From NCBI RefSeq assembly GCF_000317145.1, contig NC_019697.1, forward strand, positions 3,816,385-3,880,384: DNA of 64,000 nt, written 5' to 3'. A program made the position numbers and the translations under genes. The notes below the pieces were generated by a model that did no database searches, was not told where the DNA came from, and worked only from the letters and a program-made list of their open reading frames with translations. Positions 11,896 to 34,231 of the stretch are shown piece after piece. Position 1 is the stretch's first letter. Each line of letters starts with the position of its first letter. This DNA comes from Chamaesiphon minutus PCC 6605 (GTDB lineage: Bacteria > Cyanobacteriota > Cyanobacteriia > Cyanobacteriales > Chamaesiphonaceae).

Positions 11896-11922
11896 AATTT
11901 CCAGTTAGTTGAGGGTAATATT

Positions 11923-11957: not shown

Positions 11958-11981
11958 GCTGTATCTTTGCGATTATTTTTC

Positions 11982-12008: not shown

Positions 12009-12026
12009 AAAATCTAAAAAATCTAA

Positions 12027-15521: not shown

Positions 15522-15631
15522 ATCGGGGCGGGGCTGAAGATGTGAATTTGGGAGGCTGCTGCCCTAGTAAAATATTACCAGTTCTAGCCGATCGCCTTTA
15601 TCCATTGAGTTTATAGTCGATCGATCGAGGC

Positions 15632-15901
15632 TCAAGATCCGGCAAAAGCCACGAAACCAGGAGTTTTGCCGGAGGCAGCCGCACCAGATTTTTCGTACAT
15701 TTGGGCAGCGACGATCGAATCGGTAGCTACCGCAATTTTCTTTTCGGGCTGCCGATCGCACGTTAACTCCAGCAAAGAGGGATTGCCCGCTTTCATGGCT
15801 TCCAAAACCTGTTGATAGACGCTAGTAGCTTCCTCGGCAGTCTTACGCTGTACAGACATGGGCATTGCCGTATTTTTGAGCAGGATTTCGATGACGTACA
15901 T
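15632..15901 (-). CDS. conserved cyanobacterial protein, UPF0367-like
   Basis: An 89-aa protein starting MYVIEILLKNTAMPMSVQRK, with LELTCDRQPEKKIAV in the middle and MYEKSGAAASGKTPGF near the end. From memory this matches the small cyanobacteria-specific family UPF0367, whose function is unknown. It has alternating beta and helical stretches, no membrane segment and no signal peptide. It precedes the ECF-type ATPase gene on the same strand, possibly in one transcript. Confidence 0.75.
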   Translation of the reverse strand: MYVIEILLKNTAMPMSVQRKTAEEATSVYQQVLEAMKAGNPSLLELTCDRQPEKKIAVATDSIVAAQMYEKSGAAASGKTPGFVAFAGS

Positions 15902-16319
15902 ATAATATAGATAAATTTTGATGGTAATCCTAATTGTAAGCCGATTCTCTAAACAGAGTCTATGCTTGGGATAATTTAGTGGCTGGGAACTGCTAAAATC
16001 TTGGTTAGAACCGTCGATCCCCGCGATTGTCGATGTCTGCCCTCAACTCAAGCAGGCGATCGGAATATTCGTAAGTATTTTTACCTACAAATGGCGATAA
16101 TGATGAGAGTTTAGGGCTGTTTTGCATCAAATTATTAAATTTTGTCGAATAAAAGCTTAAGATCCTGCCCATTTCGACACAATTCTATTAGACTTAGTAA
16201 AGAAACGTAAACTGGTTTAATAAATCAGCTAAGTCCATACATGTTTGAGATGTATCCTAAGTGCATCATCTCGATCGCGTACAACATTGTCCTTATAATA
16301 TCTGGAGTTTTACTGCACC
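15902..16319 (+). promoter_or_regulatory. psbD upstream and leader region
   Basis: About 420 bases with no gene. It must carry the psbD promoter. The sequence ttgtccttataatatctggag just before the start has a TATAAT-like box (16293-16298) and a GGAG. The GGAG is 12-13 bases from the ATG, which is long for a Shine-Dalgarno. Boxes are not assigned with confidence. Confidence 0.4.
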
Positions 16320-17378
16320 ATGACCATTGCAGTTGGCAACCAGCAAGTCGAAAGAGGCTTCTTTGATGTCTTAGACGACTGGCTAAAAAAAGATCGGTTC
16401 GTATTCGTCGGCTGGTCTGGTATCTTACTATTCCCCTGTGCTTTCATGGCCCTCGGCGGCTGGATGACTGGCACTACATTCGTTACTTCTTGGTACAGTC
16501 ACGGTTTGGCTTCTAGCTACCTCGAAGGTTGCAACTTCCTAACTGCTGCTGTATCCACTCCTCCTAACAGTGTGGGACATTCCCTCATGTTACTCTGGGG
16601 ACCCGAAGCGCAAGGTGACTTAACTCGCTGGTTCCAACTTGGCGGCTTATGGAACTTTATCGCTCTTCACGGTGCTTTCGGTCTGATCGGCTTTATGCTC
16701 CGTCAGTTTGAAATCGCTCGTCTAGTTGGGATTCGTCCTTACAACGCGCTCGCTTTCTCCGGCCCTATCGCTGTATTCGTCAGCGTATTCTTGATTTATC
16801 CATTGGGTCAATCTGGCTGGTTCTTCGCACCTTCTTTTGGTGTAGCTGCAATCTTCCGTTTTATCTTATTCCTCCAAGGCTTCCATAACTGGACGCTCAA
16901 CCCCTTCCACATGATGGGTGTTGCTGGTATTCTCGGCGGTGCGCTACTGTGTGCGATTCACGGTGCGACTGTAGAAAACACCTTGTTTGAAGACAGTGAC
17001 AATGCGAACACTTTCCGCGCATTCGACCCTACTCAAGCTGAAGAAACTTACTCGATGGTAACTGCTAACCGTTTCTGGTCGCAGATCTTCGGAGTTGCAT
17101 TCTCCAACAAACGTTGGTTGCACTTCTTCATGCTATTCGTTCCTGTAGCTGGATTGTGGTTTAGCTCTGTTGGTATTGTCGGTTTGGCTCTAAACCTCCG
17201 CGCTTACGACTTCGTATCTCAAGAATTGAGAGCGGCTGAAGATCCTGAGTTTGAAACGTTCTACACCAAGAACATTCTGCTCAATGAAGGTATCCGTGCG
17301 TGGATGGCTCCTCAAGACCAACCTCACGAGCAGTTCATCTTCCCTGAAGAAGTTCTACCTCGTGGTAACGCACTCTAA
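16320..17378 (+). CDS. psbD: photosystem II D2 protein
   Basis: One of the two reaction-centre subunits of photosystem II, in the thylakoid membrane with five transmembrane helices. Length 352 aa is exact. All landmark residues sit at their standard numbers: H117 (peripheral chlorophyll), Y160 (tyrosine D), H197 (P680 chlorophyll ligand), and H214 and H268 (non-haem iron). There is no sign of divergence. psbC follows on the same strand but does not overlap. In most cyanobacteria and plastids psbC starts inside the end of psbD. Confidence 0.99.
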
Positions 17379-19775: not shown

Positions 19776-19834
19776 TACAATTTCAATCGTACTAACTGAC
19801 AGCAACCATTATAACCGAATCCCCAGACGCACGG

Positions 19835-20410
19835 TTAGTAAACCCAACGTCCCGACGTCCACCCTAGCCTGTCGCGTTTGTCGATGTGAGTGTAAGCGGT
19901 ATTATTCCCCAATCCGCCCAGCCAGGTTGGAGCCAGCCGCGCGTAGACTTTAGGCGGACTGATGCCCGAAATTCGGATGTCCCCAGCCATACCGATCAAG
20001 TGCAAGCTTTTAGGCCTTCCCCTTGCCGCTCGGTTGGCCGCTGGCGTCCGATACCAACTACTGAGCGTTATCGGTCGATTCCCAAATTGGGCGCGGATGT
20101 CGTCGAGATCGCGAGCAAAGTCGATGATGTTTTGGACGATCTCTGCGGCACTGTAAAGTCTGCCGTCGAACATCGTATCGACGGGAATGCGCGAGCCGCC
20201 TTTTGTGGCTTCCTTCCAGGTGAAGTTAGAACCGGGATAAATCGGCTCATCAACAAACACCAAGCGATCGATACCAGGTAGTTTGATAGCTTTAGTTGCA
20301 GGCATATTAAGGATCGATTTAGGTAGTAAGGGCGGAATAACTTTGGCATACGCGGATTGAATAGTCGCAATCGTCCAAAAGACGATCGCCACCAATAGAT
20401 TTATTTTCAT
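19835..20410 (-). CDS. secreted M15-type peptidase (D-Ala-D-Ala carboxypeptidase-like)
   Basis: From the ATG at 20410 the protein is 191 aa and starts MKINLLVAIVFWTIATIQSA, ending in AYA, a clear signal peptide. The catalytic zinc site of Peptidase_M15_3-type enzymes is readable: SWYRTPAANRAA, then SLHLIGMAGDIR (S-x-H-x-x-G-x-A-x-D) and a distal YTHIDKRDRLGW. Such enzymes cut peptidoglycan stem peptides and are common both as phage endolysins and in cell-wall remodelling. It is the last gene of a tight minus-strand operon encoding a collagen-like fibre and small paralogous proteins, so a role in release or wall passage of that product is inferred. Confidence 0.85.
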   Translation of the reverse strand: MKINLLVAIVFWTIATIQSAYAKVIPPLLPKSILNMPATKAIKLPGIDRLVFVDEPIYPGSNFTWKEATKGGSRIPVDTMFDGRLYSAAEIVQNIIDFARDLDDIRAQFGNRPITLSSWYRTPAANRAARGRPKSLHLIGMAGDIRISGISPPKVYARLAPTWLGGLGNNTAYTHIDKRDRLGWTSGRWVY

Positions 20411-20418
20411 GGCAATGT

Positions 20419-20796
20419 TTAAGTCTCGTCGTAACGCCAGATTTCGACAGTTAAATCGACAAGCCATCTAGCAGGCTCGAATCTAATTTTGTACGGACGC
20501 GGCGAGTAATCCGCCAGCCGAAAATGTTGATACCTACCGATGTATAAACTCGTTCTCGATACCTCAATTTCTGGCGCAAATATCCCCGTCGTCGATGGTT
20601 TGGCCGGGACGATTTGAATCAAACGCCCCGCCCATTTCCAGTTAGGCGAACCCACATTAATTCCCGTTCCAATTACGATATTGGAACTGCTAAGCGTGTA
20701 GATTCTGGGGGGAATTACCCCCAGATCGTTGGTTGTCAACTCTTCTCGCGAAACTAGATTCCAATCGAGCGAACCATCTAGAGGAAATAACGACAT
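20419..20796 (-). CDS. hypothetical protein, fibre operon
   Basis: A 125-aa protein from the ATG at 20796 (MSLFPLDGSLDWNLVSREEL); a TTG two codons earlier is possible. It is rich in beta-forming residues (PPRIYTLSSSNIVIGTGINV, then WKWAGRLIQIVP), has several aromatic residues and ends ARWLVDLTVEIWRYDET. No Cys, no membrane segment, no family recognised. It sits 6 bases after the previous gene and 8 bases before the peptidase gene, so it is part of the same transcript. A small structural or adaptor protein is a guess. Confidence 0.75.
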   Translation of the reverse strand: MSLFPLDGSLDWNLVSREELTTNDLGVIPPRIYTLSSSNIVIGTGINVGSPNWKWAGRLIQIVPAKPSTTGIFAPEIEVSRTSLYIGRYQHFRLADYSPRPYKIRFEPARWLVDLTVEIWRYDET

Positions 20797-20802
20797 AAGC
20801 AA

Positions 20803-20994
20803 TTAAATAGTTGCTGCCGTTACACCTTCTCGATAAGCTTTAGTAGTCCAATCGTTTAACCATGCTTCAAATTCAAGTTGCAAGTCTGCTTTTAAATCTG
20901 AATTAAATGTCTGAAGATTGAGATTGCTATTAAAACTAGTACGCAGAGATTCTAATTCGGCAAGGTTAGACTTTTGCAAATAAACTTTAGCCAT
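20803..20994 (-). CDS. small hypothetical protein, fibre operon
   Basis: A 63-aa, mostly helical protein (LAELESLRTSFNSNLNLQ..., then ADLQLEFEAWLNDWTTKAY). Its start codon shares a base with the stop of the preceding gene (TAATG), so translation is probably coupled. No recognised family. Confidence 0.7.
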   Translation of the reverse strand: MAKVYLQKSNLAELESLRTSFNSNLNLQTFNSDLKADLQLEFEAWLNDWTTKAYREGVTAATI

Positions 20995-21371
20995 TATTTG
21001 TAGCTGTCCATCCCGCGAGAGCGAACGGTTTTAATCGTGCCAAAAGTACCAAAGGCTTTACCTTCGAGGGAGCCTGTAGGCTGGGCTAAAACTTCCTCGA
21101 CCTTATCGCGACGAACCAAGATTTCAACCATTCTCTTTTTAGTGCCGTTCTTGCACTCAGCATGTAAGCGCATTAATTTACCGCTCAATACTAGCTGATG
21201 GATCGGAATGATTGGTTCATCATTTTCAAATGTATCCGGTGCCTTTTCTACTCCAGTTTGAGCCGAGATATCGCCCTTGTAAGTGTTCTTCTTGGTCTGG
21301 AAGTAATAGGTACTAACGCCGCCGCCAGCAGTCGCAGGAATAGAGATTTTACAAACTTCGAGTAATGCCAT
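20994..21371 (-). CDS. hypothetical protein, paralogue B2 of fibre operon
   Basis: A 125-aa protein that starts MALLEVCKISIPATAGGGVS. Its core HQLVLSGKLMRLHAECKNG and its ending GSLEGKAFGTFGTIKTVR match the next gene upstream (QLQLEGKVIRINC, GSLRGKSMASSTVKSV). The two are therefore diverged paralogues, a pairing I saw directly in the translations. Both are basic and beta-rich with a conserved Cys. No family known to me. Tandem small paralogues suggest subunits of one multimer. Confidence 0.75.
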   Translation of the reverse strand: MALLEVCKISIPATAGGGVSTYYFQTKKNTYKGDISAQTGVEKAPDTFENDEPIIPIHQLVLSGKLMRLHAECKNGTKKRMVEILVRRDKVEEVLAQPTGSLEGKAFGTFGTIKTVRSRGMDSYK

Positions 21372-21423
21372 GATCGATCTAAATATTAAGTAGGGTTGAA
21401 TCGAAAAAGAATAGCCAAAAATC

Positions 21424-21762
21424 TTAACGGCGCGAACGTTTGCGCGGAATCGTTACTGATTTAACCGTCGAACTTGCCATAGATTTTCCGCGTAATGAAC
21501 CACGAGCCGCGCTAACTTTATCGACAGCGCAAAGAATCGAATTAGTTTTTTTGTTGGCTAATCGACAATTTATTCTGATAACTTTGCCTTCAAGTTGGAG
21601 CTGACGCACTGTTTGGAATGTATCGATCGTGGCATTATCCGGAGCTTTTTTAATACCAACGATGTCGCCGACGCTTGTATAATCTGATTCTGATTGCTCT
21701 ACTCCAATTTTGAGATTCCCAACAGTTAGGATGTGCAATACTAGTGTTTTTTTGGTAGCCAT
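21424..21762 (-). CDS. hypothetical protein, paralogue B1 of fibre operon
   Basis: A 112-aa basic protein beginning MATKKTLVLHILTVGNLKIG and ending in IPRKRSRR. It shares the QL.LEGKV.R..C core and the GSLRGK motif with the following gene, which starts 51 bases downstream. No signal peptide or membrane segment. A stretch of 177 bases without a gene separates it from the collagen-like gene upstream, so it could have its own promoter. Function unknown. Confidence 0.75.
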   Translation of the reverse strand: MATKKTLVLHILTVGNLKIGVEQSESDYTSVGDIVGIKKAPDNATIDTFQTVRQLQLEGKVIRINCRLANKKTNSILCAVDKVSAARGSLRGKSMASSTVKSVTIPRKRSRR

Positions 21763-21939
21763 TCTGTAATGAGTAAAGATTGATTATTTCGCTGTTCTAC
21801 CCATCTTTCCCACCACTAACAACTCGCTAACAGGCTAATTGGAACCGCAGCTTAAGCCATTTTTGAATTTTTGGTATCGCTACTGCACTCGCGCGATAAC
21901 ATAGCTTAATCCCCGGTTTTCGCGGTAGATTCTCAACGC

Positions 21940-23778
21940 CTAGAATTTAAACCGTTTGGTCGGATTCGAGGCATTGGATACGCCGGATTGGTAATACACT
22001 GCCTTGGTAGCTGTAACTTCGCGCATTAGAAATCCGGTCGTGCCCTTACGCTGGCCGACTTTTTGCGTCGATCCGTCTAGATATGCGGGATCGATAATCG
22101 CCCTAATCGCCTCGAACAGTCGATCGCACTCCGCGACGCTCTTGCAATGCACGATGACTTTTGAGTTATCTTTAAGCGTGAGAATCCCCTCAAAATTGCC
22201 TTTTGTATAGTCGATTAACTTAACCGCTGCTGTTCGATTGGCAGTGTTAGGATGCGGGATGGTAATCGGATAAGTCGAGTTGCCGAGCGTGCCGTCTGTT
22301 TTCTTTTCTTGAAACACGTAGATTAGCTGCGGTCTATTGGCTTCCGGTCGCAATTGCCACCATTCGGGAACGGTAGCGACGCAATTGCAGTCGTTACATT
22401 GCTGGGCGGCGATTTTAGATAGTTGCGATGATTTTTGAGCCTCTTGATTTTCGGTTCCTTTAATTACTTGAATTGCTTCATTTCTAAAAATTGGCTTGCC
22501 ATCGGCTCCACATTTATCGAATTTTTCAACTGAGATTGTTGTATATTTCACTTCGGCGTCTGCTCCATTAGCTCCGCGTAATCCAGGTTCTCCTCGCGCA
22601 CCCGTTGCGCCAGCGGTTCCAGGTGCGCCTGTTGCCCCCGTCGCCCCAGTCGCTCCAGTCACTCCAGGTGCGCCTGTTGCCCCCGTCGCCCCAGTCGCTC
22701 CAGTCACTCCAGGTGCGCCTGTTGCTCCTGTTGCTCCTGTTGCGCCCGTTGCGCCCGTTGCGCCTGTTGCTCCTGTTGCGCCCGTTGCTCCTGTGGCTCC
22801 TGTGGCTCCTGTGGCTCCTGTGGCTCCTTGGGCACCATTTAACCCGTTTCTGCCGGGGGTGCCGTTTAACCCATTAAATCCATCAACGCCTCGCGCTCCT
22901 TGCGCTCCAGGTAGACCCGTCGCGCCAGTCGCTCCAGTTGCGCCTCTGGCTCCTTGCGCTCCAGGTAGACCCGTCGCGCCTGTGGCTCCCGTCGCGCCTG
23001 TGGCTCCCGTCGCTCCAGGTGCCCCATTTAAACCATTTGTGCCATTTATACCCGGTGCGCCAGCCGCTCCAGGTGCGCCAGGTGCGCCAGCGGCTCCGGG
23101 AGTGCCGGGAATACCTTGTGGCCCCGGCGGTCCGACTCGCGATCCGAGATTTAAAATCTGATATTGCAAGAATGCAATTGCCGCAACAGTTCCAATTCGC
23201 CAATTTTCAAGAGATCTAACGCGATTTTCAAGTTCGCTATCGTTTCCTCCCCTAGACTCTAACCGCGAGACTCTATCTTGAAGCGATCGGATCTGGATTT
23301 CGGCATCTTCGAGTTCTCTTGCCAGCCTTAACGCTACATCAGCCGCGCGTTGGGCGAGCTGGTACGCACTTTCAGCGCGAGCTTGTGCCGCACGAGCGCG
23401 AGCGTCAGCGTCGTTAGCGCGAGCTAGTGCTTCATCTGCCGTGCGAGAAATAATCGGGATGACACGTTCAAATTGCTGGACTCGATTTTCAATGTAGGCA
23501 ATTTGACCCGCGTTACGCTGACCCAACGCTAATGCTTGTCTGGCGATCCGATCGGTCTCGGTTATATCGCCTCTGTCGGGTCTAAAACCCAGCCAACCCC
23601 TCACGGTTTCGATAAATTGTTCGAGGGGGTTTAACCTGTCTCTAACGCGGTCTAGGTCGCCATCTTGCCGTCCGTCGTTGGATTCAACTCTAGCCAATCG
23701 ACCCGACAGGCTGCTATCGCAACCGCAGCCCGTCGCCTGGCTCAGATTGTTAATTACTCGATCGGCATTACCCGCCAC
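21940..23778 (-). CDS. collagen-like fibre protein
   Basis: A 612-aa protein with three parts. Residues 1-210 are a predicted coiled coil full of Ala, Arg and Glu heptads ([20 protein letters not shown], then [13 protein letters not shown]), ending in a hydrophobic segment [16 protein letters not shown]. Residues 216-403 are some 60 Gly-X-Y triplets, mostly GATGATGAP and GAPGAAG, a collagen-like triple helix. Residues 404-612 form a globular C-terminal domain with five Cys (CNDCNC cluster near 460) and [14 protein letters not shown]. The coiled coil/collagen/head plan is typical of trimeric fibres in phage tails and cell surfaces. GTG start. It overlaps the Cys-rich gene upstream by 11 bases. 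No secretion signal is seen. Confidence 0.88.
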
Positions 23779-24220
23779 ACACTTTTCCCCTCACGGCTTC
23801 ACTTAAAGATTCGATTTGCGACCATTTCGACGAGTCGATACAGGTTTTTCCCGGAGGGCAATAATTTTCGGGGCAATTGCCGCCGCCACAGTCGCCCTGA
23901 CATTCTTGAAGAGTTTGATAAATTCCAGGGGTGTCATAGACAGTAGCTTCAAGGCAATCGCCATTAACGCAATCGTAACTAGGCCCTTGCTCGCAGCCGT
24001 AAGCCTCGATTTGGATCACTTCCTCGTCATTAAACAAGCACCAAATGGAATAACCGATACCAGAAGTTGATAGAGGGGGTGGATATCCAAATTGGCGCGT
24101 GTAGCCGCTAGAGACACACGAGGGATATTGAGCGGCGGATACGGTGGGCGGCTGCTCCCATAGTCCCACCTCAAGGATTCTGCCCGTGCTAGTTATCCCT
24201 CTCCAGTAACATCTAGCCAT
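23768..24220 (-). CDS. Cys-rich hypothetical protein, fibre operon
   Basis: A 150-aa protein with over a dozen Cys, concentrated in [19 protein letters not shown], then [19 protein letters not shown]. The DCVNG.C...Y.TPGIY..L..C pattern recalls small disulfide modules found in some algal-virus and cyanophage proteins, from memory and not confirmed. Disulfide bonding would imply a location outside the cytoplasm, although no signal peptide is present. Start and upstream stop overlap as TAATG. It precedes the collagen-like gene. Confidence 0.75.
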
Positions 24221-24540
24221 TAGTAGTTATCGGGATCGATCGAGGTAACCGGGCTGAGTTTTTGGAAAGTGACGTTTAATTGGAGCTGGTCGTAAGGCGT
24301 TTGCCCCCGGAAAGCGGTACTAGGGAATCCCTGTTCGATGGCGATATTTTGCTCTAAATTTTCGTTGCGGCTGGCTACGCTGAGTTTGCCGCTGGCTTTT
24401 TTAACGATGCCAGCAAATAGGGATTCGGCGCGATTATCCGCTGCAGCGGTAATATCGAGATTACTTTTGAGGATCGTAATGGTTGTGGATGTTTGCGTAG
24501 TGCCAGTGCCAAAAACTTCTTCAAGTGTGGGTTCTGCCAT
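24220..24540 (-). CDS. hypothetical protein, paralogue A2 of fibre operon
   Basis: A 106-aa protein starting MAEPTLEEVFGTGTTQTSTT. It is a paralogue of the gene upstream: both have FG.G...T..TI.K, then NRAESLFAGIV here versus NTAESMFVAMV there, and both end IDP(N/D).Y (here SIDPDNY). Beta-rich, no Cys, no membrane part. Lies 5 bases after its paralogue. No family recognised; two adjacent copies suggest a heteromeric assembly. Confidence 0.75.
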   Translation of the reverse strand: MAEPTLEEVFGTGTTQTSTTITILKSNLDITAAADNRAESLFAGIVKKASGKLSVASRNENLEQNIAIEQGFPSTAFRGQTPYDQLQLNVTFQKLSPVTSIDPDNY

Positions 24541-24545
24541 GATTT

Positions 24546-24884
24546 TTAGTATTTATTAGGGTCGATCGTGTTTGCAGGTGAGGGGGTGGGATTGTCCAGC
24601 TGAGGCTTTTCGGTAAGGACGATCAAAATTTGTCGCTTTCCTACCTCTCCAAATGTGGGGAAGTCGATCGCCACCGTTCCGGTCGGGTCGTTGCTGTAGT
24701 CGCCTCCGGTAAGTGCGGCGGCTACTCGCAATACCATGGCAACAAACATCGATTCGGCGGTGTTATTCACAGCCGGAATCAAGCGCGGCATGTCTGCCTT
24801 TTGGATCGTCAGACTGGTATCCGTCTCGATCGCGCCAAGGCCGAATAGTTTTGTTACTGGTGGTTCGTTTGGATCGATCGCCAT
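24546..24884 (-). CDS. hypothetical protein, paralogue A1 of fibre operon
   Basis: A 112-aa protein, first gene of the minus-strand fibre operon, starting MAIDPNEPPVTKLFGLGAIE and ending NTIDPNKY. It shares the NTAESMF core and IDPNKY tail with the next gene. A good GGGAG Shine-Dalgarno lies 8-12 bases before its ATG (plus-strand 24892-24897). Its promoter must lie in or near the tandem palindromes at 24901-24977, shared with the divergent serine recombinase. Function unknown. Confidence 0.75.
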   Translation of the reverse strand: MAIDPNEPPVTKLFGLGAIETDTSLTIQKADMPRLIPAVNNTAESMFVAMVLRVAAALTGGDYSNDPTGTVAIDFPTFGEVGKRQILIVLTEKPQLDNPTPSPANTIDPNKY

Positions 24885-24900
24885 TTTTTATCTCCCGCTT

Positions 24901-24977
24901 GTATCGCTATGATGCCCGATGATTATCGGATGGGCATCATAGCGATACGTCCATTCAAGCAAATGGTTGAATGGACG
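24901..24977. promoter_or_regulatory. tandem perfect palindromes in a divergent intergenic region
   Basis: Two perfect inverted repeats stand back to back. The first has 17-base arms, gtatcgctatgatgccc (24901-24917) and its complement (24932-24948), around 14 bases. The second has 11-base arms, cgtccattcaa (24948-24958) and its complement (24967-24977), around 8 bases. They lie between the fibre operon and a serine recombinase gene. Such arrays are typical of resolvase sites or operators; which applies is inference. Confidence 0.7.
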
Positions 24978-25010
24978 CTAAAAATCACACCACACAGAGC
25001 GGCTTACAGG

Positions 25011-25643
25011 GTGCAAATTTTGGAGGGTAAAAATGGACAACTTCGAGCGGCAATTTACACCCGCGTCTCAACTGCGGATCAAGATTGCGATCGCCAATAT
25101 TCTGAGCTTGTATCTTATGCGGCTCGCTGCAATTATGCTGTTGTCGGGAATTATAGTGAATCTGCCAGCGGTGCTCGACTCGATCGGGTCGAACGTAGAA
25201 AAATTCTCCAGCTCGCTCGCGAACGATCGATCGATATCATCCTCGTCTCAGAACTTACCCGCTGGGGACGATCGACTATCGACTTGATCGACACTCTCCA
25301 CCAGTTGCAATCGTGGGGAGTGAGTCTCATCGCGCAAAATGGATTTCAATTCGATCTTTCCACTCCACACGGCAAAATGATCGCGAGCATTATGGCGACA
25401 TTGGCCGAATTCGAGCGCGATCTACTTAAAGAGCGAGTGAAATCGGGAATCGCACAGGCTAGGGCTAAGGGTAAAATATTCGGTCGTGCGAAAGTCGATA
25501 CTAGCTCGCGGTGTAAAAAGGTCAATGAATTGCGCTGTCAGAAGTTAAGCGAACGCGCGATCGCCAAAAAGATGAATTTATCAAAAAGCACGGTGAATAA
25601 TTGCGCTCGGTGCGAGTGTCTGCCTGAAGGAATGGACTGGTAA
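25011..25643 (+). CDS. serine recombinase (resolvase/invertase family)
   Basis: Site-specific recombinase with the catalytic domain beginning LRAAIYTRVSTADQD; the nucleophile is the Ser of TRVST (S20 from this start). Other landmarks are VSELTRWGRSTIDLI and LAEFERDLLKERVKSGI ahead of the long E helix. The C-terminal 45 residues form a helix-turn-helix (LSERAIAKKMNLSKSTVNNC), as in small Hin/Tn3-type enzymes. The frame is open from 24909, but that part lies in palindromic DNA, so a GTG at 25011 or TTG at 25020 is more likely. Oddly, the only good Shine-Dalgarno (GGAGG, 25022-25026) serves an ATG at 25033 in another frame. That may signal a frameshift or decayed start. Confidence 0.85.
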   Translation: MQILEGKNGQLRAAIYTRVSTADQDCDRQYSELVSYAARCNYAVVGNYSESASGARLDRVERRKILQLARERSIDIILVSELTRWGRSTIDLIDTLHQLQSWGVSLIAQNGFQFDLSTPHGKMIASIMATLAEFERDLLKERVKSGIAQARAKGKIFGRAKVDTSSRCKKVNELRCQKLSERAIAKKMNLSKSTVNNCARCECLPEGMDW

Positions 25644-25822
25644 TTTAGTCGTCATCGTTAAACCATTGAGATATCGACGGCATATCTATCTGTACGCGCT
25701 TGACTAATGGCGGCTGGATTACTAGGACGATCGCCAATCGCCACCGACACCTGTCGATTTTTAACTGGATCGGGAATTGCCATTGATACCGACGTTTGGG
25801 AACCAGAGATCGCATAAAAAAT

Positions 25823-25868
25823 CTTGCCAATTGTCAAAGGGCATCATATCACTTTGACAATTGGCAAG
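25823..25868 (-). terminator. terminator of the 25893-26321 gene
   Basis: Perfect 17-bp stem (cttgccaattgtcaaag and its complement) with a 12-base loop. On the minus strand it is followed by six T. Its loop holds ggcatcat, also present in the palindromes near 24901. Confidence 0.8.
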
Positions 25869-25892
25869 CTAATCAGGTAACTATTTTGTCGG

Positions 25893-26321
25893 TTAAGCTT
25901 TGCCTTGATAATGCGATCGCTTGATGCCCGTCGCAAATTCCCGCCACCGGAGATATTTAAAGTCTCCAGTCTTGCGGTGTTGGGTTTCGATCCACGTTCC
26001 GTCATCACCGACTTCTGGTATCCATCGGTTTTTAAATTGCCCTCCATTGCCCTCCATCGATACAATGCGGGTTTGAGGTTGCCCTCCATTGCCCTCCACA
26101 TCGATGCTAGCAAGTGAGTTTTTAGTTTGCCCTCCATCATGGAGGGCAACATTTAGATCGGGTTTGCCGCCCACAGATCGGACGAAATAAGCCCGCACTT
26201 CTTCGATCGATCGCTCGCGTAATGGTACGGATCGAGTGTCGCCATGCCAATCGCCTACTTCAGGCTCGCACCCGAAATCTTCAGCGATTAGGCTCAATTG
26301 TTGCCCTGGCTGGTAATCCAT
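25893..26321 (-). CDS. hypothetical protein of the accessory region
   Basis: A 142-aa protein starting MDYQPGQQLSLIAEDFGCEP and ending with a basic, aromatic stretch (DFKYLRWREFATGIKRSHYQ). The middle has two near-repeats of an EGNGGQ motif (VEGNGGQPQTR, MEGNGGQFKNR), matching the repeated tgccctccat words in the DNA. The other minus-strand frame here (25844-26152) is a shadow. It is followed by a strong terminator, which supports real transcription. No family recognised. Confidence 0.6.
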   Translation of the reverse strand: MDYQPGQQLSLIAEDFGCEPEVGDWHGDTRSVPLRERSIEEVRAYFVRSVGGKPDLNVALHDGGQTKNSLASIDVEGNGGQPQTRIVSMEGNGGQFKNRWIPEVGDDGTWIETQHRKTGDFKYLRWREFATGIKRSHYQGKA

Positions 26322-26351
26322 AATAGTAGCTAAGAGTTTTACTAATTAAGG

Positions 26352-26384
26352 CGATCGCATCCATTAGGCCGGATACGATCGCTA
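26352..26384. repeat. 12-bp imperfect hairpin near the XRE gene
   Basis: gcgatcgcatcc and ggatacgatcgc (one mismatch) flank a short loop 27 bases downstream of the XRE stop. It is built from HIP1 words and may act as a weak transcript end between the XRE gene and the next minus-strand gene. Confidence 0.4.
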
Positions 26385-26410
26385 TTGAATTTATATTGAA
26401 TTTAAGCCGT

Positions 26411-26647
26411 TTAATTTTCGTCGTCTCCTCCTCGATCGTTACTCCAGATGTCATAGTGAGCCGCTACCTTTGATATATCAACGCACAAGGCATCCGCAAT
26501 CTCTCTGATAGTTTTCAGAGTTGGATTACCTTTTCTATTGAGCATTTGAGAAACAGCGGACTGACTCTTTCCCAATTTCGCTCCTAGTTCGTCCTGGCTG
26601 ATGTTAGCGGCTTTCATGAGTTCTTGTATGGTCTGTCTTCTACCCAT
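26411..26647 (-). CDS. XRE-family transcriptional regulator
   Basis: From the ATG at 26647 the protein is 78 aa, MGRRQTIQELMKAANISQDE onward, with a single helix-turn-helix: ISQDELGAKLGKSQSAVSQM as the recognition region, then NPTLKTIREIADALCVDISK. The open frame to 26818 is upstream non-coding DNA. It faces a plus-strand operon, and an imperfect palindrome lies between them. This is the layout of a phage- or plasmid-type repressor that controls divergent early genes. An antitoxin of the HigA type is possible, but no HigB-like toxin is next to it. Confidence 0.85.
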   Translation of the reverse strand: MGRRQTIQELMKAANISQDELGAKLGKSQSAVSQMLNRKGNPTLKTIREIADALCVDISKVAAHYDIWSNDRGGDDEN

Positions 26648-26670
26648 GGCCAAATTACTTGGTTGGGTAG

Positions 26671-26721
26671 TTGACTTAATAAGATATAACTTATAATTTA
26701 AGATAAAACTTATCAAGTCAA
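26671..26721. promoter_or_regulatory. candidate operator of the XRE regulator
   Basis: An AT-rich interrupted palindrome, TTGACTTaATAAG ... CTTATcAAGTCAA, occupies 26671-26721, just 24 bases upstream of the XRE start codon and overlapping where its promoter should be. TTGACT also resembles a -35 box. Autoregulation is inferred. Confidence 0.55.
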
Positions 26722-26888
26722 TCCAAACCAACCAAGGCTCGCTAATAGATGTGTGGTAACAACTATTTTCGAGCCTTGAGCCAACCAATCCGTACAAACT
26801 AGACAATCCAAACCCCAACCCAGCGGAATGCGGGATAACGGCGGCTAGAGGGGGTCTAATTTGACATGACTATCCAAACTATCTAACT

Positions 26889-27029
26889 ATGACCCAAATA
26901 CCCGAATCAGAAGTATTTTTACCAGAGTCTGACTCTGAAGATGAAGAAATATACGCGAGTATCCACTATCAAAACTTTCTCACTCTCAAACTACTCAACC
27001 TGCTAGAAACCGATGGAACCAACAACTAA
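26889..27029 (+). CDS. small acidic protein
   Basis: A 46-codon frame, too short for common gene callers: MTQIPESEVFLPESDSEDEE, then a hydrophobic helix-like FLTLKLLNLLE and the end DGTNN. The next gene starts 17 bases before this one ends, so the two are probably translated together. Strongly acidic small proteins in this position can be DNA mimics or regulators; that is a guess. Confidence 0.5.
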   Translation: MTQIPESEVFLPESDSEDEEIYASIHYQNFLTLKLLNLLETDGTNN

Positions 27030-27813
27030 TTGGGATGATGCAATATCATCTCTAACTCAATTTGAATTCGATCTAGATGACGATCTCGGTGGTGGTCTGG
27101 GTGATTTTCTATCTCTCGACGAACTAGCCAAAGACAACTTATTTGGATTTGTGCGGGTAGGAATTGCCGCCGATCGAATCCGCAAGCGCAAGTTATGGCA
27201 GTGTGCCAAAATCTACAAAGATTGGAATGACTACTGTACTAAAGGGTTGGGTAAGACTGCATGGTACATCAACCGGACGATCGACGCGGCTAATGTAGTG
27301 ATGACCTTAATCTCAGCGGGATTTAAAATCTTGCCAACTTGTGAAGCTCAATGTCGCCCGCTGGTAAAACTGTTGGGTGTCGGCTTAGATGCGATCGCCG
27401 ATGTGTGGACTAAAGTTGTTAGCGCATTTACTCCCGATAAAATCACCGCTGGTAAAATTCTGGCGATCGCCGAGCCGGATCGTGCGGACAACCAACAGAG
27501 CAAGATCGATCGGCAGCTAGTCGATAAGCTTGCCGAGCGCGCCAAGCAACGCGGCATGACTCTCAATGAATATTTAGAAGAGATGTTAGATGAAGATGAA
27601 TCCCAAGAAAAATATTGGGAGGACTTTCTAGAAAATAAGGATAAGGATTCAGAACCCGAACTCAATGCCGAAATGCAGGCGATTGTCGATCGCGTCGAGT
27701 ACCAGTGGCTCAAGCCTGAAGCGGCCAAAAAATCGATCCTTGAAGCGGGGAATGAAATGATCGATCGCATGGATTCATTTTTTAACTCCATGCTCAGACC
27801 CAAGCCTGCATGA
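27013..27813 (+). CDS. DUF3102-like putative DNA-binding protein
   Basis: A 266-aa protein of the divergent plus-strand operon. The N-terminal 45 residues are acidic (FDLDDDLGGGLGDF). Residues about 60-150 read LWQCAKIYKDWNDYCTKGLG, then INRTIDAANVVMTL and ILPTCEAQCRPLVKL. That is the pattern of plasmid- and phage-borne proteins in which a helical domain (W..YC..., LP..E.Q.RPL) resembles ParB/KorB or DUF3102. The C-terminal 110 residues are a charged coiled coil (KLAERAKQRGMTLNEYLEEM). A role in replication, partition or regulation of the accessory element is inferred. The similarity is from memory. Confidence 0.65.
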   Translation: MEPTTNWDDAISSLTQFEFDLDDDLGGGLGDFLSLDELAKDNLFGFVRVGIAADRIRKRKLWQCAKIYKDWNDYCTKGLGKTAWYINRTIDAANVVMTLISAGFKILPTCEAQCRPLVKLLGVGLDAIADVWTKVVSAFTPDKITAGKILAIAEPDRADNQQSKIDRQLVDKLAERAKQRGMTLNEYLEEMLDEDESQEKYWEDFLENKDKDSEPELNAEMQAIVDRVEYQWLKPEAAKKSILEAGNEMIDRMDSFFNSMLRPKPA

Positions 27814-28049
27814 ATTTATCTGACGAGCAACTCGAACTATTAATCAACATCGTCGCGACCTATGTAGAGTTGCTCGACGATCGCGCGGCTTATTGGTATG
27901 GCGATGTCAATAGCAAAACATTTGCCAAGTTGCTCGACGAACGTCGCGATTGCTATCAGTTAGAGTGCCAGCTTAGGGAATTTAGAGCCAACCCATCGCG
28001 GTTTACGATCGCGGTGAATATGGACGATCGAGCGATCGATCGTAATTAA
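27810..28049 (+). CDS. small helical hypothetical protein
   Basis: A 79-aa protein overlapping the previous stop by 4 bases (ATGA), so clearly in the same operon. Helical and charged: LSDEQLELLINIVATYVELL, then DERRDCYQLECQLREF. No family recognised. Similar small proteins with an N-terminal EQ.ELL..I motif are common on cyanobacterial plasmids, from memory only. Confidence 0.65.
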   Translation: MNLSDEQLELLINIVATYVELLDDRAAYWYGDVNSKTFAKLLDERRDCYQLECQLREFRANPSRFTIAVNMDDRAIDRN

Positions 28050-28051
28050 TT

Positions 28052-28177
28052 ATGGAACACCGAGATTTACCCGAAACTTGCCCGAATTGTAGTGCTACTC
28101 TTTGTTATGACTCTGTAGAAGATACAGGGCTAATTTATTGTGGTAATTGCCGCTTGATAGAACCTATACAAATCTAG
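28052..28177 (+). CDS. 41-aa zinc-ribbon protein
   Basis: A frame of 41 codons with two knuckles, C-P-N-C (residues 10-13) and C-G-N-C (30-33), a minimal zinc ribbon. It starts 2 bases after the previous stop. Missed by length filters, but the Cys spacing and tight linkage support it. The IS607-type element begins directly after it. Confidence 0.55.
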   Translation: MEHRDLPETCPNCSATLCYDSVEDTGLIYCGNCRLIEPIQI

Positions 28178-28179
28178 AC

Positions 28180-28330
28180 AAGCTAGATTGATGTCTACTT
28201 CCTACTTCAACGGGGGCATCGGAGCGGCTATCCCTCTGTAGGCTTCCAGGCGCAAGCTGCACCCAGTATAGTGTTTAGGCTACTATAAGCGGCGCATCGA
28301 ACGGGAGGTTCCCTCCCGTTTGTGTGCGAC
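28180..28330 (-). ncRNA. candidate omega RNA (reRNA) of TnpB
   Basis: Downstream of and overlapping the tnpB 3' end is a GC-rich, hairpin-rich stretch. The minus strand has the stem aacgggagg/cctcccgtt, then gatgcgccgc, tagtagcctaaac...tata, gggtgcagcttgcgcc and agccgctccgatgcccccgttg. Known omega RNAs lie at exactly this place, and the words resemble TnpB/Cas12k guide scaffolds of cyanobacteria. The guide would follow at the left edge of the element. Assignment is by position and word pattern only. Confidence 0.5.
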
Positions 28331-29435
28331 AAGACAGAGCTTGATGTTCTAGATTGCGTGCAGCATTCAGATCGCGGTCGATAGTGATATTGCATTGCTG
28401 ACAGTTAAAAACACGTTCTTTGAGCAGCATGTCTTGGATATGCCCACAACAAGAACAAGTTTTAGAACTTGGAAAAAAGCGACCTACAGTAATCAATTCA
28501 CTACCATATAGCTCACATTTATAAGTTAATTGGCGACGAAATTCATACATACCTAAATCTGCAATTGACTTAGCCAAACAATGATTGGATAACATTCCCG
28601 ATACATTCAAATCTTCAATTACTACTTGGCTGTGGTTCTTAGCCAAGTGAGTAGTTAATTTGTTAAGTGTATCTTTACGAATGTTGGCAGTTTTTGCATG
28701 TTGTTTGGCTACTTTTAAATTCGCCTTTTGTCGATTGTTTGAGCCTTTAACCTTGCGGCTAGCTGCTTTTTGAAGCCTAGCTAATCTGGATTGAGATTGA
28801 CGGTAAGGTTGAGGGTTGGGGAACGTTGCACCTGTGCTTAAAGTAGCTAGTGTTTTAATCCCTAAGTCTACACCACAAACACCAACTAGTTTAGCTGTAG
28901 TGTTTGGTTCGACTTCATAGCTAAAAGAGACAAACCAACGGTCAGCGGTTCGACTAATTATTGCTGTTTTAGGCGTCAATCCTTGCGGCAATCGTTCGTA
29001 AGTCTTTACTACTCCTATTTTTGGTAATTGAAGCCAACGATGTTCAACTTTAATAGTCCCTTCCAAGGTAAAGCTATCATGCTGACCTTTGCGCTTGAAT
29101 CTGGGAAAGCCCACCCGCCGACCATTCGCAGTTTTCTTTCTAAAGAAATCAGAAAATGCACTCGCTAAGTATCTCAGCGCATATTGAGGGCTAGTTTTGG
29201 ATACTTCGTAATACCAAGGGTTTTCAACCTTCACCCACTTGACTAGGAATTTATGCAGATCGATCGCTGATGGAAATCTTAGTTTCTCTGTTGGATTTTC
29301 TCGATTGTAGTCGAGAATTTTTTTACACAGATCTAAGCCCCAGTTCCAAGCATGACGAGCTACACCCGCATGTCTAGCCAGTTGAGTTCTTTGATAGTTA
29401 TTCAGTTTTAGTTCGGTTTTAAAACTGATTCTCAT
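28275..29435 (-). CDS. tnpB: TnpB RNA-guided nuclease
   Basis: A 386-aa TnpB, ancestor-like to Cas12. The RuvC site is complete: D190 in GVDLGIK, E274 in VVIEDLNVSG, and a third Asp in ITIDRDLNAARN (D353/D355). The zinc finger is C327-x2-C330 ... C345-x2-C348. The N-terminal wedge part has the usual LNNYQRTQLARHAGVARHAW. Full length and intact, so it should be active as an omega-RNA-guided endonuclease that helps keep the element. Its start overlaps the tnpA stop by 4 bases (ATGA). Confidence 0.94.
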   Translation of the reverse strand: MRISFKTELKLNNYQRTQLARHAGVARHAWNWGLDLCKKILDYNRENPTEKLRFPSAIDLHKFLVKWVKVENPWYYEVSKTSPQYALRYLASAFSDFFRKKTANGRRVGFPRFKRKGQHDSFTLEGTIKVEHRWLQLPKIGVVKTYERLPQGLTPKTAIISRTADRWFVSFSYEVEPNTTAKLVGVCGVDLGIKTLATLSTGATFPNPQPYRQSQSRLARLQKAASRKVKGSNNRQKANLKVAKQHAKTANIRKDTLNKLTTHLAKNHSQVVIEDLNVSGMLSNHCLAKSIADLGMYEFRRQLTYKCELYGSELITVGRFFPSSKTCSCCGHIQDMLLKERVFNCQQCNITIDRDLNAARNLEHQALSCRTQTGGNLPFDAPLIVA

Positions 29436-30034
29436 AACTGTTTTGCTACCTCCTTTAACTCTTCTACTATTTTCTTATTCTTATGAGAACGACTACCGTA
29501 TAAACGAGCAGAAAATACAGTGATGATTTCGAGTACGTCTGATGCTAAATCTTCCTCAAATGTACTATCATCAGAGCGATTGATAATTATCACCTCTGTT
29601 CCAAATTGTTCGCATAATGTGAAAATTAGATCTGACCCAAATCTAAGTAATCTATCTTTATGAGTTAGAACTAGTCGTTCAACTTGATAAGATGTAATTA
29701 ACTTGATTAGCCTAATTAGTCCTTTCTTTTTATAGTTCATTCCACTGCCAAGATCTTGAATTACTTCAAACCCCCAGCCATGTTTAGCACAATAACTTTC
29801 TAAAACTATAACTTGCCTAGTTAGATCTTCTTTCTGGTCGTGACTAGAAACTCTGGCATAGCCTACTGTTAATTGAGTATCCGATTTATTGCTAATTAAA
29901 TCTGCTATGTCATACCGACGATGACCGCCAGCAGTGCGAGTGGACTTGATTTTTCCATCAAGTTCCCATCTGTGTAGGGTTCTAACCGTTACACCGAGTA
30001 AGGTGGCTGCTTCCTGTGGCGTTAAACTAGACAT
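29432..30034 (-). CDS. tnpA: IS607-family serine transposase
   Basis: A 200-aa recombinase with an N-terminal MerR-like helix-turn-helix (LTPQEAATLLGVTVRTLHRW, residues 4-23), then the serine recombinase domain (VGYARVSSHDQKEDL; catalytic Ser 63/64, R61). KDRLLRFGSDLIFTLCEQFG is the usual IS607 motif. It catalyses both excision and insertion of the element. Intact, and in one operon with tnpB. Confidence 0.94.
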   Translation of the reverse strand: MSSLTPQEAATLLGVTVRTLHRWELDGKIKSTRTAGGHRRYDIADLISNKSDTQLTVGYARVSSHDQKEDLTRQVIVLESYCAKHGWGFEVIQDLGSGMNYKKKGLIRLIKLITSYQVERLVLTHKDRLLRFGSDLIFTLCEQFGTEVIIINRSDDSTFEEDLASDVLEIITVFSARLYGSRSHKNKKIVEELKEVAKQL

Positions 30035-30091
30035 AAAATCATTATAACAGATAATTTGTCTAGTTATGTATAGTTTGATCTAGGTATTTAG

Positions 30092-30154
30092 GTGCAGTTC
30101 AAAAACCCCTTTGAAGTACCAATTGATGACTTCCAAGGTGACGACGATGAGTAA
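30092..30154 (+). pseudogene. short in-frame tail, possibly of a gene cut by the IS607 element
   Basis: The plus strand reads VQFKNPFEVPIDDFQGDDDE and then stops, and the next gene starts inside the stop region. It is either a 20-codon peptide or the 3' end of a gene whose 5' part was separated by the IS607 insertion. Low confidence. Confidence 0.35.
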
Positions 30155-30311
30155 ATGGTGGCTAAGTTTGTACGACCCTAACAATCGATTGATTGCTTAT
30201 TACCGTATCGATGGCGATGCCACAATCGATCGGATTGCGGCAACATTTATATTTAAATATTCAAATATCGAGTATTTCAAGATCGCAGCAAACCCGCCTG
30301 ATGAGTCGTAA
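30147..30311 (+). CDS. small hypothetical protein
   Basis: From the ATG at 30147 the protein is 54 aa: MSKWWLSLYDPNNRLIAYYR, then DGDATIDRIAATFIFKYSNI. It looks like a small alpha/beta domain. The ATG overlaps the preceding stop (ATGAGTAA), typical of coupled genes. No family recognised. Confidence 0.55.
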   Translation: MSKWWLSLYDPNNRLIAYYRIDGDATIDRIAATFIFKYSNIEYFKIAANPPDES

Positions 30312-30611
30312 ACGACGAAACAGCATAATGCTGTCGCGGGTGGCTTCCAACCCCACCTTAGCCCGGTTAAAATTGCTCGCTCGAACCTATAACCGAAGTG
30401 GGGTATCCCTATGACATTCATGGTGTGTAGCGAGTAAAAATATCGGTATTCCCCCGCCCTAAAAGTGAATTGGGACACCTCGGGAGATTCCTGGGCTGGT
30501 ATGGGATTAAAGGGGTATTTCTACCCCTTTAAAATATACCGAATGTTGGAACGAGAACATGCAATTCTCACTCCCTTAATTAACCTAGTTAATGTACCTA
30601 TACAATTAAAT
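30312..30611 (+). ncRNA. structured non-coding region before the IS110-like gene
   Basis: About 300 bases without a convincing gene. It has several hairpins: acagcat/atgctgt (30320-30334), a perfect 10-bp stem taaaggggta/taccccttta with a 4-base loop (30508-30531), and long-range complements such as tcggtat (near 30443) with ataccga (near 30536). IS110 recombinases use a bridge RNA encoded in just this position. Possible bridge RNA; not proven. Confidence 0.4.
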
Positions 30612-31790
30612 ATGATAACACGAAAAGTTATCGGCGCGGATGCCTGTAAAGGGCGTCTGGTCTGCATTGCGCTCGATTCTCTCCCTTCGCGAGCGAGAGC
30701 GGGTGAGATTTATCGTGACAAATCGGATTATTTCGACGTCGATGTATCGGCGGCTGGATTGAAGTATTTATTATCACTTAAACCAGACGTGTTAGTACTC
30801 GAACCAACGGGCGTTAATTACATTAAATTCTGGGTAACTAAATGCGCCGAATATGGTGTAGAAATTGCCCTAGTCGGACACAAGCAATCCAATCGCTATC
30901 GCGAGAATTTATCCTTGCCCGATAAAGATGATGAAGCCGACGCTCTAGCCTTAGCTTGCTATTATTTAGAGCATCAATCCGACCCGCTCCAATTTGCCAG
31001 AATCCGCGATGATGTCACCTCACGACTGAGGGATGCAGCCTTGCGCCTCAAGCATATCGATCGAATTCAATCGCCACTGCTCAACCGCCTGCAACAGGAT
31101 TTAGCTTGGGCGATGCCAGAAGTGGGCGGCTCGGTACATGCGGTACTGTTTTGGCGGTGGCTCGCTGAATACTCGAAATCGGCGCGGTACGATTTGCTTT
31201 TAAGCACTACATGCGGTTTGGGTATTACCCAGAACATGAGAGCTATGGCTAAGTTGCTAGTAGACTTGTGGCGACAAAAGGCGATCGTCGAGAGTGAAAT
31301 GGTCGATCTGTTAAAGCACTCTCAATTCGATCGCGATCGAGCCGTGATGGAAAAATACTATCTACCCAAGATCGCTCAGGCGATAATCATCAGCCAGTAC
31401 TACCCATTAACTAATTTTTTGGGTGAAGACGGGAATGAGATTATGCAAATATCTCGATCGCGGCGCACTGGTACCCACACTAAAAAGCCCGTCAGTCTGC
31501 GGCGATTTCGCAAGACTTTGGGCGTGGCTCCCGTGCGGGAAGCTAGCGGCAAAAGTCCCACCAAGACTAAAAAAGCAGGTTCGAGGATTTGCCGGATTCA
31601 GTTATGGCTGTGGCTGTTTGGTGCCTTCGAGCGCAAGAAAAGCAAGATTAAGACAGCCACTTCAGCCATGCAAGATTTAAACGATCTGTGGCTGTCTCTC
31701 CACGCCGAAAAGCACATCAAAGTCGCTCGCTCGACCTTTTGCTCTAAGTTCGTCGAACGACTGTTCTACGACTTGCTAGCGGCCAGATAA
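30612..31790 (+). CDS. IS110-like DEDD recombinase
   Basis: From the ATG at 30612 the protein is 392 aa. The N-terminal RuvC-like domain has D10 (VIGADACKG), E64 (LVLEPTGVNY) and D107/D110 (DKDDEADALA). The C-terminal Transposase_20-type domain has RFRKTLGVAPVREASGKSP with the likely catalytic S312, then KAGSRICRIQLWLWL. It is longer in the middle than classic IS110 enzymes and has IYPF-like YYPLTNFLGEDG. The frame is open from 30465, but that part is non-coding. It may be a transposase or serve as the integrase of the accessory element. A strong hairpin follows. Confidence 0.8.
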   Translation: MITRKVIGADACKGRLVCIALDSLPSRARAGEIYRDKSDYFDVDVSAAGLKYLLSLKPDVLVLEPTGVNYIKFWVTKCAEYGVEIALVGHKQSNRYRENLSLPDKDDEADALALACYYLEHQSDPLQFARIRDDVTSRLRDAALRLKHIDRIQSPLLNRLQQDLAWAMPEVGGSVHAVLFWRWLAEYSKSARYDLLLSTTCGLGITQNMRAMAKLLVDLWRQKAIVESEMVDLLKHSQFDRDRAVMEKYYLPKIAQAIIISQYYPLTNFLGEDGNEIMQISRSRRTGTHTKKPVSLRRFRKTLGVAPVREASGKSPTKTKKAGSRICRIQLWLWLFGAFERKKSKIKTATSAMQDLNDLWLSLHAEKHIKVARSTFCSKFVERLFYDLLAAR

Positions 31791-31794
31791 TAAT

Positions 31795-31826
31795 ATGGGG
31801 ACTAGTAATTTATAACTAGTCCCCAT
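31795..31826 (+). terminator. terminator after the IS110-like gene
   Basis: Perfect 12-bp stem atggggactagt / actagtccccat with an 8-base loop, 5 bases after the stop. Only a weak T-run follows. It also marks the right edge of recognisable accessory DNA. Confidence 0.7.
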
Positions 31827-32022
31827 CCTATTTTCCCCAATTTCATTTAAAGTGAATGTCAACTGCTGTGTTCGATCGGTAAAATTAGATTAATGTTTGT
31901 AAAATATAGTCGATAATTGTTTGAATCAAAGGAATGCAGCAGTTTCACAGTAAGCGATGAGAGTAAAATAACTACAATCTAAAGAGTTAAGTTTTAGATC
32001 TTATTTTGAATAATATTTATTT

Positions 32023-32409: not shown

Positions 32410-32615
32410 CGGCTGAAACCGCCGCTAGTGGTGCGAAGTCCGCCTACGCGGACTAAGATTTTAAATAAGAAGCCTAGTCTTTAGAGGGCAGGCATGAAGC
32501 ACTGCCCCTACAGATTGATGCTATTAGTAATATATCAAATAGGATCGCTGTGGTGGATCTTTTTTGCGATCGACAGTTCCCGACTACATTGAGTATTAAG
32601 TGCAATCTAGAATAT

Positions 32616-34225: not shown

Positions 34226-34231
34226 ACAAAC

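Follow-up and report, generated by a model that had tools for sequence, protein, structure and literature searches.

A collagen-fibre operon at one end of a 12-kb mobile element of Chamaesiphon minutus, with relatives across cyanobacteria

The window analyzed here is a 64,000-nucleotide stretch of Chamaesiphon minutus PCC 6605 (contig NC_019697.1; G000:C1:3816385-3880384 in our numbering, where G and L numbers denote genomes and loci), taken from a genome of 6.76 Mb in three contigs. Within it we found a 12.0-kb insertion, one end of which is formed by an operon of nine minus-strand genes encoding a collagen-type fibre protein, small acidic and basic proteins, and a cell wall peptidase. Relatives of this operon recur in similar order in many cyanobacterial genomes. 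We give about an even chance to the reading that cyanobacteria carry a temperate, virus-like kind of mobile element and that the operon is its late module, for structure and release.

The 12.0-kb insertion and its operon

The borders of the element were located from empty sites. Copies of GAAT lie at 19817-19820 and 31854-31857 of the window, and in L068, from the same-genus genome G003, the two flanks are joined through a single GAAT, with the DUF751 gene directly abutting the sequence at window 31854. Since this empty site shares its GAAT with both window junctions, 19821-31853 is an insertion of 12.0 kb, positioned upstream of DUF751/rbfA. The DUF751 gene was found in seven of the eight other genomes of the genus (L068-L074; none in G002), and all seven lack the element at this site. 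The gene at 32023 follows DUF751 within the locus in six genomes; in L068 only its start is covered. Another genome of the genus, G006, has a related operon at a different place (contig C178).

A first-pass annotation had treated the operon, 19835..24884, as a stand-alone unit. Its account of the gene content holds, but what it described is the cargo end of a larger element with recombinases and regulators, and the coordinates given at the time cover less than half of the mobile unit. The element and the operon, with protein lengths in amino acids (aa), are as follows.

19821..31853: whole mobile element, 12.0 kb, between the two GAAT copies, from empty sites
24546..24884, minus strand: A1, acidic 112-aa protein (pI 4.4), first in the operon, paralogue of A2
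24220..24540, minus strand: A2, acidic 106-aa protein, paralogue of A1 (clustering)
23768..24220, minus strand: Cys-rich protein, 150 aa with 12 Cys, with relatives (cluster d24) in L032, L041 and L048
21940..23778, minus strand: coiled-coil/collagen fibre protein, 612 aa, with a conserved C-terminal domain (Pfam, PHROG, recurrence of that domain)
21424..21762, minus strand: B1, basic 112-aa protein (pI 10.5), paralogue of B2 (B profile)
20994..21371, minus strand: B2, basic 125-aa protein (pI 9.3), paralogue of B1 (B profile, AlphaFold model)
20803..20994, minus strand: 63-aa acidic protein (open reading frame only)
20419..20802, minus strand: 127-aa protein placed where other loci have the small beta-type protein (position; resemblance seen by eye)
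19835..20467, minus strand: M15 peptidase, 210 aa, endolysin-like, with an N-terminal hydrophobic stretch (Pfam, PHROG)

All nine open reading frames (ORFs) and their junctions were reproduced in the ORF list of the window, at the positions first annotated. In transcription order they encode 112, 106, 150, 612, 112, 125, 63, 127 and 210 aa, and their junctions are a gap of 5 bases, overlaps of 1 and 11, gaps of 177 and 52, an overlap of 1, an abutting pair, and an overlap of 49. Both proposed paralogue pairs were borne out by BLASTP, with 28% identity for A1/A2 (E 3e-5) and 36% for B1/B2 (E 9e-9); profiles of the six-member B1 and B2 families align at E 4e-21. The Cys-rich protein answers to its first description as well, and its relatives in L032, L041 and L048 occupy the same slot, ahead of the fibre gene. 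Near the position of the 63-aa protein, L010, L008 and L011 have small ORFs of 74-85 aa, and the 127-aa protein resembles, by eye only, 130-146-aa proteins of the same three loci. Because the 127-aa ORF overlaps its neighbor and was dropped by the clustering gene caller, its homology was not covered in the clustering.

The collagen protein and the peptidase were likewise recovered as annotated. The 612-aa protein matches Pfam Collagen (1.9e-31) and Alanine_zipper (7e-6), both above the Pfam cut-off, and collagen-like 'tail fiber' PHROGs; one 'head and packaging' family (phrog_38766) is hit as well by the collagen part, which we grade as domain-level likeness. The 210-aa protein matches Peptidase_M15_3 (6.3e-12, above cut-off) and the endolysin family phrog_894 (3.8e-19), and its export is plausible because of the N-terminal hydrophobic stretch. 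The other seven proteins gave no Pfam family above cut-off and no convincing PHROG match. Profile hits of the small proteins to phage tail or capsid families, which the first-pass annotation named as refuting its reading, are thus partly at hand: none is convincing for these seven proteins, and the other two have 'endolysin', 'tail fiber' and 'head and packaging' matches at domain level. No signal peptide was noticed on the fibre, A or B proteins by eye, no predictor having been run.

Recurrence, gene order and selection

The fibre-plus-wall-enzyme arrangement recurs, and mapping across cyanobacterial genomes, as first suggested, showed a similar order. B2 alone as query reached 6 of 148 relatives, the B2 profile 13 of 386 genomes of a phylum sample, and a joint profile of the B proteins 31 of 388 genomes in an order sample; the three samples overlap, and each count includes the genome of the window. 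In the order sample, 11 first-look candidates were scored per genome (G591 had 20 and G600 had 28), and copy numbers are lower bounds. A pattern scan for the fibre C-terminal domain covered one genome per species for 84,980 species of bacteria and archaea, and the 15 loci that were confirmed all have cyanobacterial titles; a first contig scan with B1 gave 170 pattern matches, none of which was confirmed.

Gene calling and clustering of 33 stretches revealed the following order. It starts with an A protein (~110 aa; the cluster of A1, d3, is present in 19 of the 33), often a 258-aa or 180-270-aa protein, sometimes a second A, and a Cys-rich protein. These are followed by a coiled-coil/collagen-type protein, mostly of 600-900 aa, sometimes a 230-320-aa protein, then B1 and B2. 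The end is made up of small beta-type proteins, in 11 stretches a protein that is hydrophobic near its N-terminus, and at some loci a wall hydrolase. The full set is not defined by any one locus: the operon of the window is without the 258-aa type, the 180-aa type and a recognized membrane protein, and in one group of loci a single B-like protein replaces the pair (profile match E 5e-8). B proteins are basic, with a pI of at least 9.2 in 42 of 45 rows (6.7, 7.9 and 8.8 in the other three). As a lead only, the fused fibre-tip domain aligns with the stand-alone 230-320-aa protein at hhalign E 0.055 and probability 1%. Two contigs were seen twice, as L034/L045 and as L010/L049.

Because relatives of several operon proteins recur in similar order in many genomes, the arrangement is not due to chance. 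In addition, the genes of the relatives are under purifying selection. Of 17 gene pairs between relatives, all from genomes other than that of the window, 14 have a dN/dS of 0.03-0.23, several with dS above 1; among the remaining three, dS is saturated in two and one pair is without change.

Three vehicles for related operons

Related operons are carried by three kinds of vehicle: tRNA-integrated elements, circular plasmids, and elements with an IS110-type transposase. In G275 the element lies between repeats of a tRNA-Phe gene 20,446 bp apart, and in G138 between 18-bp repeats of a tRNA-Leu gene 18,892 bp apart; in both, a tyrosine integrase adjoins the tRNA, so that integrase and direct repeats at both ends are present together. 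ARAGORN found no tRNA in the window, and the window copy does not have this arrangement. The 18.9-kb tRNA-Leu element also encodes a 911-aa helicase-like protein, a small resolvase and a toxin-antitoxin-like pair of 119 and 124 aa (L008/G138:C1 ~198200-202500); by eye, these look like defence or maintenance cargo.

Two circular plasmids carry the operon. On pHT582-1 (37 kb), which has an integrase, phmmer matched eight of the ten operon genes (best 1e-73), all but those of the 179- and 74-aa proteins; a methyltransferase and a restriction endonuclease subunit are annotated at 29988-35804 of this plasmid (L084, CP019637.1). A more distant version occurs on pMIC7113.08 (20.8 kb), where the operon ends with a malectin-domain protein followed by a response-regulator-like protein annotated with an FHA domain (L079, 12553-13879).

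In the window, the part of the element beyond the operon comprises the following features.

24909..25643, plus strand: serine recombinase of the resolvase type, divergent from the operon (Resolvase 1.2e-37)
25893..26321, minus strand: 142-aa ORF, no Pfam family at E 0.01
26411..26818, minus strand: XRE-type helix-turn-helix regulator, a repressor candidate (HTH_3 1.5e-12)
27013..27813, plus strand: 266-aa protein with a ribbon-helix-helix segment (MatP_C 2.6e-5, just above cut-off)
28275..30034, minus strand: IS607-type pair of TnpB-like OrfB and MerR-resolvase (OrfB_IS605 1.8e-30; Resolvase 2.3e-20 plus MerR)
30465..31790, plus strand: IS110-type transposase at the far end of the element, facing outward, 63 bp from the end (clustering with L034, sub-cut-off DEDD_Tnp_IS110 match, position)

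The IS607-type pair probably inserted later; L009 has a similar pair shortly upstream of its operon (14834-16628). Taken alone, the window transposase matches DEDD_Tnp_IS110 at 2e-4 (21.6 bits, under the Pfam cut-off of 29), and it clusters with the transposase of the L034 element (phmmer E below 1e-4). Its E of 7e-164 in the family profile arises by construction, the window copy having been part of that profile. It has no other relative in its own genome at E 0.001. Elsewhere in the family, the IS110 identity is given by a G600 protein that matches Transposase_20 (21.5 bits against a cut-off of 21.3) and the transposase family phrog_2199 (1e-7), and the L044 transposase matches DEDD at 3.6e-5, below cut-off.

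A profile search found the IS110-type transposase in 18 of 45 stretches, always on the side opposite the operon and pointing outward; the 45 include several copies from one genome, and the profile was partly built from stretches that it then found. The 17 such stretches other than the window also hold a ~190-aa recombinase that is little beyond a tyrosine-recombinase catalytic domain. That the transposase lies inside the unit, at its end, is seen from the window borders, from identical copies in G600, and from the G198 copies, in which the shared part stops just past the gene. As exceptions, the transposase of g517_1 lies outside the shared part, and g591_3 and g517_2 have none.

Dispersed, near-identical copies occur within single chromosomes. 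In G600, two copies are 100% identical over 13,442 bp at different sites of one chromosome and end 6 bp past the transposase stop, and the aligned pieces of another two copies mostly show 95-99% identity, with one short piece at 83%. This genome has four full-length transposase matches 10.8-11.3 kb from a B gene and two short fragments elsewhere. In G591, the distance to a B gene is 11.5-12.3 kb for eight of ten transposase matches, each on the side and strand expected, whereas random placement put a mean of 0.12 and a maximum of 3 within 15 kb of a B gene in 20,000 draws. A simple mobility story is complicated by the G600 transposase, which shares only 28-35% identity with its counterparts in the other five genomes, and by copies without a transposase.

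A bridge RNA beside the transposase is not supported over controls: the RNA structure upstream of the gene in nine elements gave z of -0.1 to -4.0, and seven operon-upstream controls were as structured or more (-3.3 to -6.1). Despite the multi-copy state of the element in G591, nine of its ten IS110-type matches have a single TAG within the matched part (G591:C1, e.g., 804716-805630 plus eight further matches); this TAG may precede the true start, and the tenth match starts later (query residue 62) and may not cover it. A CRISPR-like repeat array with a Cas2-like ORF lies beside the end of one G198 copy (L036, ~11681-13000). Its spacers had no match in the other fetched loci, and CRISPR-like spacer matches in fetched loci were dismissed as the same or duplicate loci, or as short matches through apparent collagen-gene repeats.

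A virus-like reading and its alternatives

On the late-module reading, the element inserts through an exchangeable recombination module: for the window and several relatives this is a transposase of IS110 type, for others a tRNA-site tyrosine integrase, and some copies are circular plasmids. It would persist under a repressor, and induction would lead to expression of the operon. The products would be a coiled-coil/collagen fibre with an adhesion tip and the small acidic and basic proteins, of which the B proteins would probably bind DNA or form the core of a particle. The membrane protein of some members, none being recognized in the window, is a possible holin, and the wall hydrolase of some members could act in release or entry. 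A shell, if there is one, may be an element protein that we did not recognize or may be borrowed from a helper.

Wall-hydrolase likeness was seen in part of the family. M15 wall hydrolases were found in the window, L010/L049, L033 and L042, an endolysin-type protein in L011, and Tlde1/YkuD-like proteins in L008, L044 and L052 (weak E-values or clustering). A HerA/FtsK-like ATPase, which could be a packaging or transfer motor, is strong in three distinct loci (L034/L045, L040 and L066) and weak in L059 and L038; its Pfam match, DUF87 at 0.003, is below cut-off. The membrane ATPase of pMIC7113.08 was set aside as packaging evidence, since it is found in 41 plasmid records.

Several results weigh against a virus-like element. 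Capsid, portal and terminase were not identified among the window proteins by Pfam or PHROG (for the collagen protein, among the 25 of 40 matches listed), and the only terminase-like match, of the L066 HerA-like ATPase to phrog_2666 (E 0.006), was judged weak. The wall hydrolase and the membrane protein are recognized in only part of the loci. B2 was the one protein folded. Its AlphaFold model (mean pLDDT 67.8 from a 15-row alignment) has two strand pairs and short helices at moderate confidence and no fold match, the best Foldseek E being 0.41 in the PDB and 0.14 in BFVD, with none at E 0.001. PDB sequence profiles gave nothing for the A family, a best E of 0.14 for B and 0.56 for the fibre tip. 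No relative was confirmed in four IMG/VR pattern scans with single proteins and one alignment, or in phage records with three single proteins, which is odd for a free virus. In G591, three of 11 scored B loci have no transposase on the expected side and two of the ten transposase matches have no B nearby, and the transposase and B2 trees disagree, which implies that modules have been shuffled.

Shell genes were not recognized beyond the window either. We scanned 49 ORFs chosen from two complete elements (G600 and G275) with Pfam and PHROG, and they match integrase, repressor, DnaB-like helicase, collagen-like tail, transposase and one virion structural families, as well as endolysin (one ORF, which is presumably that of the 263-aa protein of G600). 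Among the 25 of 46 PHROG families listed and the 13 Pfam families there is no terminase, portal, coat, sheath or baseplate. These results fit a helper-dependent satellite that excises, replicates, brings its own adsorption fibre and lysin, and relies on a tailed helper phage for the capsid that packages it. Integrase, repressors and DnaB-like helicase are satellite genes too, and the size of 11-20 kb agrees. However, no capsid-remodelling or small-terminase-like gene was recognized, and a fibre operon with a lysin but without capsid genes is not typical of known satellites. We hold the satellite to be the likeliest of the alternatives, but rather unlikely.

A fibre combined with a wall hydrolase, where no genes for packaging DNA were identified, could also serve as a weapon or bacteriocin, in which a few cells lyse and the fibre and wall enzyme kill or bind neighbors, the whole being cargo of a mobile element. 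That plasmids, transposon-like elements and tRNA-integrated elements all carry it would suit this role. We consider it unlikely, since no tube, sheath or baseplate family appeared among the PHROG matches listed for the window, the relatives' proteins, pMIC7113.08 and the two elements, no immunity gene was recognized, and a wall hydrolase was not recognized at every locus. Slightly less probable still is a surface appendage or adhesin that benefits the host. Surface fibres can be made of collagen and coiled-coil proteins, and pHT582-1 carries restriction-modification genes as well as the operon, but the fibre, A and B proteins show no signal peptide by eye, and some operons have, towards their end, endolysin-type and membrane proteins that resemble a lysis cassette.

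Tail-related PHROG matches, among those listed, are of generic 'tail protein', tail-fibre and weak tape-measure type. Phage-type matches that were judged weak or domain-level are those of a 267-aa protein of L047 (tail protein phrog_5939, 6.7e-12; minor head protein phrog_1775, 0.001), of proteins of pMIC7113.08 (minor tail phrog_1446, 9e-4; tape measure phrog_167, 0.024) and of an endolysin-like protein (tape measure, 0.003). An ordinary tailed prophage, decayed to the point that head and tail genes are gone, would account for the L047 tail match, the pMIC7113.08 minor tail match and the tail-fibre and endolysin matches of the window, but it is very improbable, as the recently duplicated G600 element is equally without head or tail-machine families among those listed, and gene order and purifying selection persist across genera. 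The edge of an ordinary prophage is likewise disfavored: in the 20-38 kb around relatives, read by eye and clustered but not each scanned with phage profiles, no such prophage was noticed, in line with the first-pass observation that capsid and tail-machine genes are absent.

By gene criteria the element is neither a tailed prophage, with no major capsid, portal or large terminase among the families listed for the window proteins and the two complete elements, nor a tailocin. Some of its parts are those of IS110 elements, of satellites or of small tailless viruses, but it earns none of these labels in full. Like tectiviruses and corticoviruses, tailless membrane viruses with spike and lysis genes, it is small (10-20 kb) and has a compact structural operon, and the PRD1 spike P5 has a collagen-like part; unlike them, no double-jelly-roll coat was recognized, with B2 as the one protein folded, and a HerA/FtsK-like ATPase is strong in the three loci only. 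Phage satellites (PICI, P4-like) share the integrase, repressor and replication helicase with no identified capsid or terminase, but the elements here have their own fibre operon, some a wall hydrolase, IS110-type mobility and a dispersed multi-copy state. As in Mu, there are several chromosomal copies with a transposase at one end and lysis-like genes at the other, although the transposase is of IS110 rather than DDE type, no Mu head or tail genes were identified, and the size is ~1/3 that of Mu. The plasmids pMIC7113.08 and pHT582-1 have the operon, but they are extrachromosomal, mostly annotated with hypothetical proteins, and no IS110 of this family was found on them. Compared with IS110-family insertion sequences (IS621 and kin, PMC11208160), a transposase of this type is the terminal gene, but units of ~12-15 kb contain a regulator, a recombinase and virus-like genes, and no bridge RNA is demonstrated.

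More tentatively, we propose that these elements could be an unnamed class of virus-like transposon, in which an IS110-type recombinase or exchangeable integrase moves a 12-20-kb element present in up to ~ten copies per chromosome, and the late operon builds a particle, lacking capsid (HK97-type), portal and terminase, from the small acidic and basic proteins and the collagen/coiled-coil fibre. No description of this element family was found in the literature searched, which is weak evidence of novelty, as most subscription papers and preprints lay outside coverage. The genes may belong to a virus of an unusual sort, to a parasite of viruses, or to a transfer particle of a new kind.

Should the operon make a particle, then cyanobacteria harbor a virus-like element that escapes virus searches based on marker genes, because no known shell or packaging gene is recognizable in it. 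IS110-type transposition would then be linked to virus-like spread, and one structural module would be movable by transposase, integrase or plasmid. What, if anything, encloses the DNA of the element would be directly testable in the genomes with near-identical recent copies.

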